A stretch of 64,000 bases of DNA from positions 186,001-250,000 of IMG/VR virus record IMGVR_UViG_3300028558_000791; one strand, written 5' to 3'. Source of the DNA: a virus. Each line of letters begins with the position of its first letter. Position 1 is the stretch's first letter. Shown here piece after piece: positions 25,001 to 27,690 of the stretch. A program made the translations under genes and the position numbers. The notes under the pieces are model-generated. The model was not told the DNA's origin, searched no databases, and saw nothing but the letters and a program-made list of their open reading frames with translations.

Positions 25001-25534
25001 TTCTTTGATGGAGAGTTTGTGACTGTTCAGGACATTAAGCGATCCAAAGATAAGACCAATGTATCTTCTGTCAAAGGCATCATCCGAGACTTTTTTGAAT
25101 TTCGTGTCAAGAAGGAAGGTAAGTATTATGGTCAGCCAATGGTTAAGGCCGTAATGGAAGATAAGAATGGTGACCAATGTACATTGACGATCTTCCCAGA
25201 TCGTTGGAAGGTTGTGCAAGAAAGGATTGGAGAACTCAACAAGAAGGCTGAATTCGATGTAGGTATCGCATTGTTCTTTTCAGGGAATACCAATTCTTAT
25301 GAAGACGATATGGGTGTCATATTGGATCAATTGTATCATATTGCCCTGCCACCTCCCCTGCCAACCGACTTGAAAGCCAAGAAAATCAACCTCAAAGAGG
25401 CTAAGGCTAAAATGTTTGGAATTAAGGAAGAAGCCGAAAAACCTAAGAGTCCTCAGGAGATACTCGATGAAATCGAGGATACTTTGTATGATGAAGGTCT
25501 TATCGATTTGGATGACGAAAACGAGGATGACTGA
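22019..25534 (+). CDS. dnaE: DNA polymerase III alpha subunit (C-family replicase)
   Basis: 1171 residues. Start ATG 22019 has a perfect AGGAGG; the ORF extends to 21986 but the added residues are not family-like. Domains: PHP (FVSLHNQTEFSILDS, ITDHGTLAG), the palm with GEGRGSVGGSLIAYL and the catalytic acid pair in FPDIDTDFAPSG, a third acid in KMDTLGLSTLD, THAGGIIIS, then fingers and a helix-hairpin-helix region, and an OB-type C-terminus. Expected as the phage replicase. No proofreading exonuclease, clamp or clamp loader is in this window. A proposed promoter overlaps its stop codon. Confidence 0.96.
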   Translation: MTDFVSLHNQTEFSILDSIISPKGLFKRAKELGQTAVAITDHGTLAGAWDAWKASKETGVKLIIGCECYFQDDAANVNEKFRHIILLAKNAVGYRNLLTLNKKGFDQSSFVGKRVYSVLDWNLLAEHAEGLICLTACGNGIISQPIMKGKLDDAERTLLRLKDLFGENLGIEIQPNNMKRGSNIFNDEIDQDFLNRQLVKLGKKHDIRVVAACNAHYLTKEESSTHDAFLAIGSHQPIHSGFRLRYPVPEFYLKTGDEVKDFFTRVFKDDAQTFIDNSIYFSNLCEVPEWIDPKYSNPSGKELPQFPVKDELDYAQFRTWVATQPEDVQKLEEDKLFLRYRCVMTFDSRVKNLTPEKHKEYMARIDEELDVLEFHGFSSYMLIVADFIDWARKHEIAVGEGRGSVGGSLIAYLLGIHQADPIKYNLIFARFHNKEKSSFPDIDTDFAPSGRPLVQEYLRNKYGADHVAHVSNVNTITPKVYVKDIARVCELGGSKEDAVRIGNEVANCIPAEIHSIDDALAKVPLFAEYAKKYPEFEKYKAICGKYRAWSTHAGGIIISARPLTGLVPLRKDKDGALAIEYDKDKAEENGLVKMDTLGLSTLDTIGQTMKLIKESGKIVPEVISYDEYDQEAYDIISNGDTFCVFQLGTSGGTIDLCKQIKPKSVNDISYINSLARPSARDMRKDFILTKDGKKPFSLLHPTLGRAFNNTFGFGLYEESLMYLAQDVAGWSLHGADRLRKLTKEKGKNPKKAQEWRNEFIKGAVENNVNEAIAKRIWDEVVDKFQGYGFNMSHSILYSMTSYKTAYLKAHFPIEFLMANLMAEVKSNAPDSKGNIEKIKKEIRKRRVKIVPPDINKSQLVYTIEDGNRLITGLDAIKFVGADAIKEIIEKRPFTDFFDFMTRVSSKAVRANSIQALAACGALDSFKIPRKLMFLYCSDYRKKLQVWLKKHDPTVDQFVYPWPAEPDWSMPEVYALEQYYLGESFTCKPALAYGRFFDGEFVTVQDIKRSKDKTNVSSVKGIIRDFFEFRVKKEGKYYGQPMVKAVMEDKNGDQCTLTIFPDRWKVVQERIGELNKKAEFDVGIALFFSGNTNSYEDDMGVILDQLYHIALPPPLPTDLKAKKINLKEAKAKMFGIKEEAEKPKSPQEILDEIEDTLYDEGLIDLDDENEDD

Positions 25535-25539
25535 TATAT
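25532..25539 (+). promoter_or_regulatory. Proposed phage promoter core TGATATAT
   Basis: Exact octamer overlapping the dnaE stop (TGA at 25532-25534), followed by AAG, 98 bases before the next ATG. It sits just upstream of the 13-bp inverted repeat. Confidence 0.55.
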
Positions 25540-25542
25540 AAG

Positions 25543-25614
25543 ATACAGACGATATTGGATAATAACAAAATCGACGCATCAACCGAAAAATGATACGAAT
25601 GATATCGTCTGTAT
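25543..25614 (+). repeat. 13-bp perfect inverted repeat in a gene leader
   Basis: ATACAGACGATAT (25543-25555) and ATATCGTCTGTAT (25602-25614) are exact reverse complements 46 bases apart. They lie between the proposed promoter and the helix-turn-helix gene. They could be a paired operator for that protein or, in RNA, a long 5' stem. Confidence 0.75.
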
Positions 25615-25636
25615 ATGCATAATAAGGAAAGTAGTC

Positions 25637-26530
25637 ATGACCAAAATCAAACTCAAGGAATGGGCTGACCGTCACAACCTATCATATTTAACTGCAAATA
25701 GACATTTTCATGCAGGTATGATTCCAGGTGCGGTGCAGCTAGACTCAGGTACCATCCTTGTGGAGGATGAATCTCTGGAGCAGTCCATGGCCGCAAATCC
25801 ATCTCACGGTGATGCAATGTCTCTCTTCCTTAAAAAGACAGTTGAGTTTAGCAAGAACAATTCTACAGTAGAAGATTTTGCTGCTTTCATCATCTCTAAT
25901 TTCCAAATCAGGTTGAATACAACTCCTGATAGTCCTAAATACTCTCGTCGTAAACCAGAAGCGGATGAAGTGCAAAAACACTTTCAGCAATTCTTACCAG
26001 ATAAAGAATCCATTGAGCATCTAAAAGCCGTTAAGTCTTTGCTCAAGGAAGGTAAGCAAGCTGGTGATGTTGTGCCTGCCGAGGCAGCGCTCCCCGAGGC
26101 AGCGCTCCCCGTGGCAGCCACTTCACCCGTTGCTGGTTTAGATGAGAATCTCATGCAAGATTTTTTGGCGTCTCCTAGCGCCACAGACGTACGTATGTAC
26201 GGGAATGTTACTGAAGGTCTGGTATCACGAAGTGTTGATTTTGACACAACTCCACAACAGATCAACTATACCGGCTCTACAAGCCAGACCTTCAGTAACG
26301 CTTCTTTCAGCGAAGGCGTTAGTAGTAACTACATGGTAAGTGGTGTAAACGCAGCAAATCCAGTCTCACTCGGTTTTGTTGGAGCTAGCGTAATACTTAA
26401 TGCTGTCCCAGCCTCCGCTCCATTTCAACCAACACAAAAAGAATTATTGTCAGCCACACAGGTTATAGAGACAACCGAGACTGACGACCTCCCACGCAAG
26501 CGTGGCAGAAAACCATCTAAGAAGAGATAA
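25637..26530 (+). CDS. Helix-turn-helix and AT-hook DNA-binding protein
   Basis: 297 residues. The first ~40 residues resemble the MerR/excisionase-type winged helix (LKEWADRHNLSYLTANRHF then AGMIPGAVQLDSGTILV). The C-terminus ends with an AT-hook-like KRGRKPSKKR. Between them is a long Ala/Pro/Ser/Asn-rich stretch, including a short tandem repeat at 26081-26119 and a perfect 16-bp inverted repeat at 26207-26299. Two DNA-binding ends suggest a regulator or DNA-architecture protein. The 13-bp inverted repeat in its leader is a candidate self-regulation site. Similar helix-turn-helix modules start IS607-type recombinases, but no recombinase domain follows. Confidence 0.72.
   Translation: MTKIKLKEWADRHNLSYLTANRHFHAGMIPGAVQLDSGTILVEDESLEQSMAANPSHGDAMSLFLKKTVEFSKNNSTVEDFAAFIISNFQIRLNTTPDSPKYSRRKPEADEVQKHFQQFLPDKESIEHLKAVKSLLKEGKQAGDVVPAEAALPEAALPVAATSPVAGLDENLMQDFLASPSATDVRMYGNVTEGLVSRSVDFDTTPQQINYTGSTSQTFSNASFSEGVSSNYMVSGVNAANPVSLGFVGASVILNAVPASAPFQPTQKELLSATQVIETTETDDLPRKRGRKPSKKR
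26081..26119 (+). repeat. Short tandem repeat in coding region
   Basis: GAGGCAGCGCTCCCC twice in tandem (26081-26095, 26096-26110), then a partial third copy. Encodes an Ala/Pro/Glu-rich linker (EAALP units). Confidence 0.8.
26207..26299 (+). repeat. 16-bp perfect inverted repeat within a coding sequence
   Basis: GTTACTGAAGGTCTGG (26207-26222) and CCAGACCTTCAGTAAC (26284-26299) are exact reverse complements, 61 bases apart. The whole block is 93 bp, 31 codons, starting and ending on codon boundaries. Inverting the block would place an in-frame TGA near its end. Confidence 0.9.
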
Positions 26531-26532
26531 TC

Positions 26533-27690
26533 ATGCAGCTACACAATCGTTTATCCAATTTGTTTCAAAAAGAAACTGACAGACTACTCAAGGGTTTCCT
26601 CAACGATAATCCCGATGTACTTAAGAAGTATGTTGAAGGTGGTGTTGTTGCCGTAGGCGCCGTTCTCAGACCAATCAATTCCTTTATGAGACACCTATTA
26701 GTGGTTCAAGGATTGGACCCGGAGGCCGTTCCTGGCGAGAAGCAAAGGCTTCTTGTCCTACAGTCTCTAACCAATTTCTTCGATTCAAAGCATGAAAAAG
26801 ACTTTGATGATGATTACGATCTATCTTGGGTTAATCAAAAGTTTGAAAAGACCAGAGGCGCTCTCAAAGACCTAAAGATGACTAAAGATAAGTTTATGGA
26901 ACTTACTGACCTATCTAGACTTCCAAATGTAAGAACATCTACCGTTCCTACTGTGGAAAGATTAGAAGATCTAACTGGTGAGCCAATTGATCATCTTGCT
27001 CAAAGAGTAAATCCAGTTGCTCCTGAACCAGAGAAGCGTGAGGCTCGTCTTACCTTTTCTGAACGAGCTGAAAAGTTGAAGAGAATTGCTCAAGATATTA
27101 GATCAGAATCTAAAGATTTCAATCCAGGTGATGCTATTCAGCAATTGAGAAGCTTTATGAATGACCTCGGCAAGCAGCTTGAAGATGTCAAGCCAGAGGT
27201 TGAAGAAAAGTCAGCTCCTCTAAAGCCAGGCAAGAAGAAGCTAAACAAAGGTAAGAGAGTCGGTTCAGGACTTAGAGTTCAGCGTGTTTCTAATACAGAA
27301 CCGGTGAAGGAAGTGCCAAGCACCCTAACTGTTGAGTCTGATCGTAAAGTACGCCCACCAGCAATACGTGAACCAGGCCGTAATCTAAGAGACTTGGCTT
27401 CTCAAAAGAAGGCAGAAATCAAGGCTGCTAAAGAAGCTACCCCTGAATTTAAGGCAGAGGCTGCTCGCAAATTAGCTAGAGCTACCGAGCTAACTCATCT
27501 TATGGCTCAAAAGGGTTTAGTTGAAGCTAGCGATACTGCTTTTAACACCCAGGTTGATTCTATGAAGAATTGGTCTGATAACAATTTTGATGCATTGGAA
27601 AGAGTAGTAACTAAGTACGGCCCTACTAAGGATGCCGTTGCAGAGAACAAATTCAAGGGTTCTTTCAGAAGAGCCAAGAATAAGGTATAA
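26533..27690 (+). CDS. Hypothetical protein, charged and helical
   Basis: 385 residues. N-terminal ~130 residues look folded (KYVEGGVVAVGAVLRPINSF). The middle (about 180-310) is Lys/Glu/Pro-rich and disordered-like, with a basic KPGKKKLNKGKRVGSG. The C-terminus is a helical Ala/Lys-rich region ending in RRAKNKV. It starts 2 bases after the previous stop. Candidate internal virion or DNA-associated protein by composition only. Confidence 0.7.
   Translation: MQLHNRLSNLFQKETDRLLKGFLNDNPDVLKKYVEGGVVAVGAVLRPINSFMRHLLVVQGLDPEAVPGEKQRLLVLQSLTNFFDSKHEKDFDDDYDLSWVNQKFEKTRGALKDLKMTKDKFMELTDLSRLPNVRTSTVPTVERLEDLTGEPIDHLAQRVNPVAPEPEKREARLTFSERAEKLKRIAQDIRSESKDFNPGDAIQQLRSFMNDLGKQLEDVKPEVEEKSAPLKPGKKKLNKGKRVGSGLRVQRVSNTEPVKEVPSTLTVESDRKVRPPAIREPGRNLRDLASQKKAEIKAAKEATPEFKAEAARKLARATELTHLMAQKGLVEASDTAFNTQVDSMKNWSDNNFDALERVVTKYGPTKDAVAENKFKGSFRRAKNKV

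Follow-up and report, generated by a model that had tools for sequence, protein, structure and literature searches.

In the genome of an uncultivated jumbo phage, a 93-nt block lying wholly inside a protein-coding gene carries a long hairpin in which pairing has been kept while the letters of the stem have drifted. The source is a viral record of 480,838 bp (G000), and the window analysed here is a 64-kb stretch of it. The block, at positions 26207-26299, is conserved in related phages, shows covariation in its stem and constraint at the nucleotide level within the reading frame, keeps one orientation, and occurs as one strong copy per record. On balance, comparative sequence analysis favours a functional RNA element that would act on its own transcript, and RNA rather than DNA is likely to be its functional form. 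A strong RNA hairpin was among the readings offered by the original prediction for this repeat, and covariation, invariant loop blocks and synonymous-codon constraint now support it.

The inverted repeat and its statistical background

The 5' arm of the repeat, GTTACTGAAGGTCTGG, is followed after 61 nt by its exact reverse complement. Both arms lie in frame within the host ORF, and the block that they delimit corresponds to codons 191-221 (Table 1). The coordinates and the ORF frame confirm the features that had drawn attention to the locus, namely a perfect 16-bp repeat, a spacing of 61 bases and a 93-bp block that begins and ends on codon boundaries. Apart from the two arms, the 16-mer has no further occurrence anywhere in the 480,838-bp record.

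Table 1. Features of the hairpin locus and further long repeats (window coordinates, unless prefixed with G000 for the whole record)
Feature	Position	Strand	Basis or remark
Promoter-like TGATATATAAGATA	25532..25545	+	overlaps dnaE stop codon
Intergenic leader of ORF	25535..25636	+	conserved in relatives
Host ORF	25637..26530	+	297 aa, MerR-like/AT-hook protein gene
Outer stem, 5' arm	26207..26222	+	repeat and covariation
Possible 2-bp inner helix	26229..26230 with 26276..26277	+	tentative
Apical helix GUUGAU / AUCAAC	26234..26239 with 26261..26266	+	pairing where present
Loop block 1, ACTCCACAA	26249..26257	+	identical in 18/18 aligned sequences
Loop block 2, AACTATACC	26264..26272	+	nearly invariant
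Outer stem, 3' arm	26284..26299	+	repeat and covariation
Further inverted repeats (examples)	G000:15363-15449, 335095-335162, 357641-357728, 372360-372435		

The expectation from chance was derived from 20 first-order Markov simulations of the window, in which loops of up to 200 nt were counted. Perfect inverted repeats averaged 0.1 per simulated window for an arm of 13 bp and 0.05 for an arm of 14 bp, and none was longer than 14 bp, which bears out the earlier claim that a repeat of this kind is unlikely by chance. Across the whole record, eight perfect inverted repeats of at least 14 bp are present, against about 0.4 predicted by scaling the window simulation. This phage is thus rich in long hairpins, and having such a repeat does not by itself single out the one at 26207-26299; its distinguishing mark among the long repeats of the record is conservation in relatives. 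The excess in the record comprises perfect inverted repeats of 14-19 bp, several of them with loops of 30-56 nt.

Host gene and genomic neighbourhood

The protein encoded by the host ORF consists of an N-terminal winged-HTH domain (MerR/BldC-like), a conserved helical middle, a variable linker and a basic C-terminal tail that is AT-hook-like (PRKRGRKPSKKR). Its predicted structure has a mean pLDDT of 59 and is readable for the N-terminal domain only. The winged-HTH domain itself is modelled with confidence, and among solved folds MerR/BldC-type regulators come closest to it, with weak scores (best E=0.012). The linker, spanning about residues 145-260, is predicted to be disordered, and the peptide encoded by the block falls within this disorder. 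Searches of Pfam and PHROGs gave no significant family match for the 297-aa protein, the family profile had no match among PDB sequences, and no RNA-binding domain was recognisable in the protein.

The ORF would be carried on a long co-directional phage transcript. A gene for a DnaE-type polymerase lies upstream of it and one for a UvsX-like recombinase downstream, and the next gene starts 2 nt past the stop codon of the ORF. Further away lie topoisomerase I, terminase, and a calcineurin-like phosphoesterase followed by an SMC-like ATPase. In two relatives, L008 and L011, the C-terminal parts of the gene are near-identical, whereas the N-terminal HTH regions and the upstream sequences are clearly different; this contrast in sequence suggests domain swapping in the gene. 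In a distant part of the record (G000:420000-480000), G+C climbs from about 0.42 to 0.48-0.57, which may reflect a chimeric join or a foreign segment.

Distribution among related phages

A search of IMG/VR by protein, and then by protein alignment, yielded 28 homologous loci. A scan with the loop core added four copies (L149, L168, L214, L178), three of them in complete homologs and one in a truncated homolog. Every homolog examined, apart from the five most distant (L054-L057 and L059), has the block at the equivalent position, with frame and orientation unchanged. Those five are without the core, so the gene family can dispense with the element. With E below 0.001, a covariance model detects it in 23 sequences, the window and 22 other genes, and protein identity among the homologs recovered in this way goes down to about 38%. 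In L052, core and stem are evident by direct alignment, together with a weak covariance-model score and an unremarkable fold in the excerpt tested.

Within the gene, the block forms a conserved island surrounded by a hypervariable linker. Each record yields a single strong match to the covariance model, which in every case falls inside this gene, and in L011 and L046 the element accompanies the gene despite a different upstream region. Three classes of weaker signal were set aside: a match at G000:414281 (20 bits, E=0.08) lacks at least one of the two core blocks, exact core matches that lack the stem in other viral contigs are attributed to chance, and opposite-strand matches to the model are weak palindromic echoes of the element itself.

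The uniform orientation bears on another reading contained in the original prediction, that of an invertible DNA switch between the arms that would confer phase variation. Perfect arms would suit such a switch, and inversion would truncate the protein ahead of its AT-hook; as had been predicted, the frame of the inverted block stays open until a TGA at codon 25 of 31, the one stop in that frame. However, all homologous copies share one orientation with no inverted copy among them, the opposite-strand model matches amount to the palindromic echo only, and the arms drift freely between phages. Inversion would also reverse-complement the most conserved bases and thereby destroy the invariant blocks. 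On these grounds the switch is not supported and is assigned a negligible probability.

Compensatory evolution of the stem

The letters of the stem vary freely between phages while their complementarity is kept. From an ordinary MAFFT alignment of 18 sequences, RNAalifold found the outer stem unaided, with two-sided compensation at 11 of 14 pairs. Scored against a hand-drawn structure, the same alignment shows two-sided changes at 16 pairs and double changes in 48 cells, compared with 20 by shuffle (0/500 shuffles as high), and its pairing of 81% drops to 23-52% with slid partners. In the covariance-model alignment, which comprises 23 sequences and is fitted to the structure, there are 19 pairs and 70 double-change cells against 22.7 shuffled. 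Parsimony on a tree inferred solely from the N-terminal part places about 40 compensatory double changes on separate branches. The corresponding shuffled mean is 10.5 (maximum 19), and the slid-partner control on the same tree yields 2-8 double changes. Counts based on the covariance model, those on the tree included, lean towards the model's own structure, as those from MAFFT and RNAalifold do not.

Inside the outer stem, the possible 2-bp inner helix is paired in 93% of cells and has almost no covariation. The apical helix is 95.6% paired where present and is absent or shortened in the most distant copies. These inner helices are not supported by covariation because they are almost invariant. 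The fold of the copy in the window is more stable than each of 300 synonymous recodings, and most relatives behave similarly, with L046 and L052 as exceptions.

A neutral origin of the repeat, as a template-switch scar or by chance, would be in keeping with the surplus of long inverted repeats in the record. Against it stand the compensatory evolution across the clade and the Markov control. The original prediction held that a neutral scar would be left in the absence both of inverted reads and of conservation in relatives; in fact, relatives conserve the repeat with different stem sequences. Such an origin has a vanishingly small probability.

Loop blocks and coding constraint

The two loop blocks, ACTCCACAA and AACTATAC(C), hardly vary, whichever codon position is considered, and remain fixed across phages whose stems have few letters in common. 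Depending on the phage, block 2 begins 0, 3 or 6 nt past block 1. Synonymous-codon identity is 0.80-0.94 within the block, compared with mostly 0.35-0.65 elsewhere, and at the loop blocks it reaches 0.94 in the close set and 0.97 in the distant set, where about 0.4-0.5 would be expected. A survey of overlapping reading frames found no alternative frame open in all copies. Because synonymous positions are frozen, the fold is unusually stable and no alternative frame is shared, the constraint acts on the nucleic acid and not on the peptide.

A constrained peptide (TPQ..NYT) or a constrained overlapping gene would account for the conservation of the reading frame and of several residues. It would not account for the frozen synonymous positions in a peptide that is predicted to be disordered, or for stem residues that vary in register with pairing, and the survey of frames leaves no overlapping gene common to all copies. 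This explanation is held to be highly improbable.

Several other roles were also considered and rejected. A promoter reading of AACTATACC was dropped, since the distance between the blocks varies by the steps given above and a promoter would not need the stem. An intrinsic terminator would be a short-loop GC-rich hairpin with a U run, and the present structure has a 61-nt loop and is followed by GCTTCTTTC inside the ORF. Programmed frameshifting was dismissed, as no slippery site was noticed by eye and the zero-frame C-terminus is conserved. Pairing of the loop with the LVED codons (TTGTGGAG, ORF nt 122) is found only in the window and in L004/L005 and is regarded as chance.

RNA or DNA as the functional form

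At stem positions flanked by Watson-Crick pairs, the coding strand has 25 G-U combinations against 5 A-C, a count to be read with the caveats that it comes from the covariance model and leans towards its structure, that G-T is the mildest mismatch in DNA too and that related sequences are not independent. The excess is suggestive of a transcript of the coding strand or of single-stranded DNA of that sense. The main rival to the RNA reading is a DNA-level origin inside an initiator gene. More broadly, the block could be a replication origin, packaging or primosome site located within the gene of its own initiator and used as an extruded or single-stranded hairpin, which is considered rather unlikely.

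Several properties of the locus would suit such a site. The protein has an N-terminal winged-HTH domain, a disordered linker over the element and a basic C-terminus; its neighbours include dnaE, the UvsX-like recombinase and topoisomerase I; and the single copy per record stays with the gene despite the differing upstream region in L011 and L046. A precedent exists in phage lambda, whose origin maps within gene O (PMC5043065) and is likewise a nucleic-acid signal that the gene of a DNA-binding phage protein carries within its coding sequence. Unlike the present locus, lambda relies on repeated sequence-specific binding sites; here there is one hairpin with a fixed loop and a stem whose letters drift, only the pairing being kept. 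No repeated sites for the encoded protein were found in 25500-27200 beyond short low-significance repeats. The excess of G-U over A-C in the stem also speaks against a DNA site. Finally, in none of G000, G008 and G009 does GC skew switch at the site, which, given that co-directional genes could mask one, is mild evidence against a fixed bidirectional origin.

Proposed mechanism and alternative RNA roles

In the preferred reading as a cis-acting RNA element, a clamp stem of 16-20 bp, whose letters would be irrelevant provided that they pair, would hold up the loop. The loop would present ACUCCACAA and AACUAUACC, single-stranded or weakly paired, for recognition by sequence, and a protein, perhaps the gene's own product, would bind it. 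This binding would tune the expression of the gene itself or of the gene that begins 2 nt past its stop codon. The location of the element could be explained by the disordered linker, where the protein would tolerate the insertion of a signal. We infer cis action, a protein ligand and control of expression as the outcome; autoregulation through the element by the gene's own protein is conceivable, though doubtful. A bolder proposal, unlikely as a whole, is that the hairpin is the first known member of a class of structure-specific control sites concealed by jumbo phages in coding sequence, and that it works as an RNA (or RNA-primed) switch for replication start or for the replication operon, with the DNA-binding product of the host gene as the reader.

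A trans-acting small RNA, released from the mRNA or acting within it, might instead use the loop blocks to pair with host or phage RNAs. Two fixed loop blocks on a drifting stem do resemble seeds, but no convincing base-pairing target for the loop was found among the 57 predicted phage tRNAs, near the locus or record-wide, where complementarity is confined to isolated 9-10-mers. A small RNA is judged improbable. Pairing with phage tRNAs had been considered on account of a resemblance to tRNA-His, and the best matches proved ordinary. The 57 tRNA genes are those predicted in G000 (e.g. L127, L130), where one poorly formed tRNA-His candidate adjoins a normal one.

Another possibility, assessed as very unlikely, is a polymerase-modifying antitermination element of the put type, acting for the operon from the nascent RNA. 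The HK022 put RNA is a cis-acting RNA folded from the phage transcript (PMC9378689), as is proposed for the present element, and a structured RNA within a long transcript of co-directional phage genes would agree with such a role. The present element, by contrast, lies inside an ORF, midway along it and not in an early leader, and no consistent second stem-loop could be made out. A covariance-model search of Rfam detected no similarity to any family, catalogued ribozymes and riboswitches included, the best overlapping match being a snoRNA model with E=6.9.

Relation to known systems

Cis-acting hairpins in mRNAs are a known kind of regulatory element. The translational operators of T4 gp43 and of the MS2 coat protein are mRNA hairpins in which a phage protein binds a sequence-specific loop. 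The element described here likewise has a hairpin with a sequence-specific loop, for which protein binding is proposed; unlike these operators, which are placed at the ribosome-binding site, it lies about 570 nt into the ORF. The HIV RRE and the cis-acting elements of RNA viruses are structured RNAs inside viral coding sequences and show the same superposition of protein code and RNA structure, whereas the present case concerns a double-stranded DNA phage and the disordered linker of a DNA-binding protein.

An incomplete coverage of the literature on structured RNAs in phages and huge phages yielded no description of the element. As far as checked, a hairpin that overlaps the code for a disordered linker in a clade of jumbo phages is new and has no Rfam entry. 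Structured RNAs are normally sought between genes; here, a clear covarying structured RNA overlaps a protein-coding linker in uncultivated giant phages. If its function is confirmed, the element would provide a concrete way into the regulation by jumbo phages of a gene set to which dnaE and the UvsX-like recombinase belong, and would suggest that disordered linkers host nucleic-acid signals.

The leader of the gene and a second hairpin

The leader upstream of the ORF probably contains a promoter at TGATATATAAGATA, because close variants of this motif occur about 20 nt upstream of three tRNA genes in the record. The leader also holds a partly conserved 13-bp inverted repeat (25543-25555 / 25602-25614), as well as conserved AATAATAACAAAA and AAAATGATA stretches, and is possibly a second regulatory element.

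Two other repeats of the record were compared with relatives, and only the one at 152074 matched over the whole stem-loop. This second conserved long hairpin (G000:152074-152147, corresponding to L131:12074-12147) lies outside the window and has the arms GAATCTGTGCTATAAT/ATTATAGCACAGATTC. Its occurrence alongside the first suggests, tentatively, that such elements do not stand alone. The hairpin spans the start codon of an ORF beginning MNKYMFESDYS, and about 50 nt are nearly invariant in four relatives.
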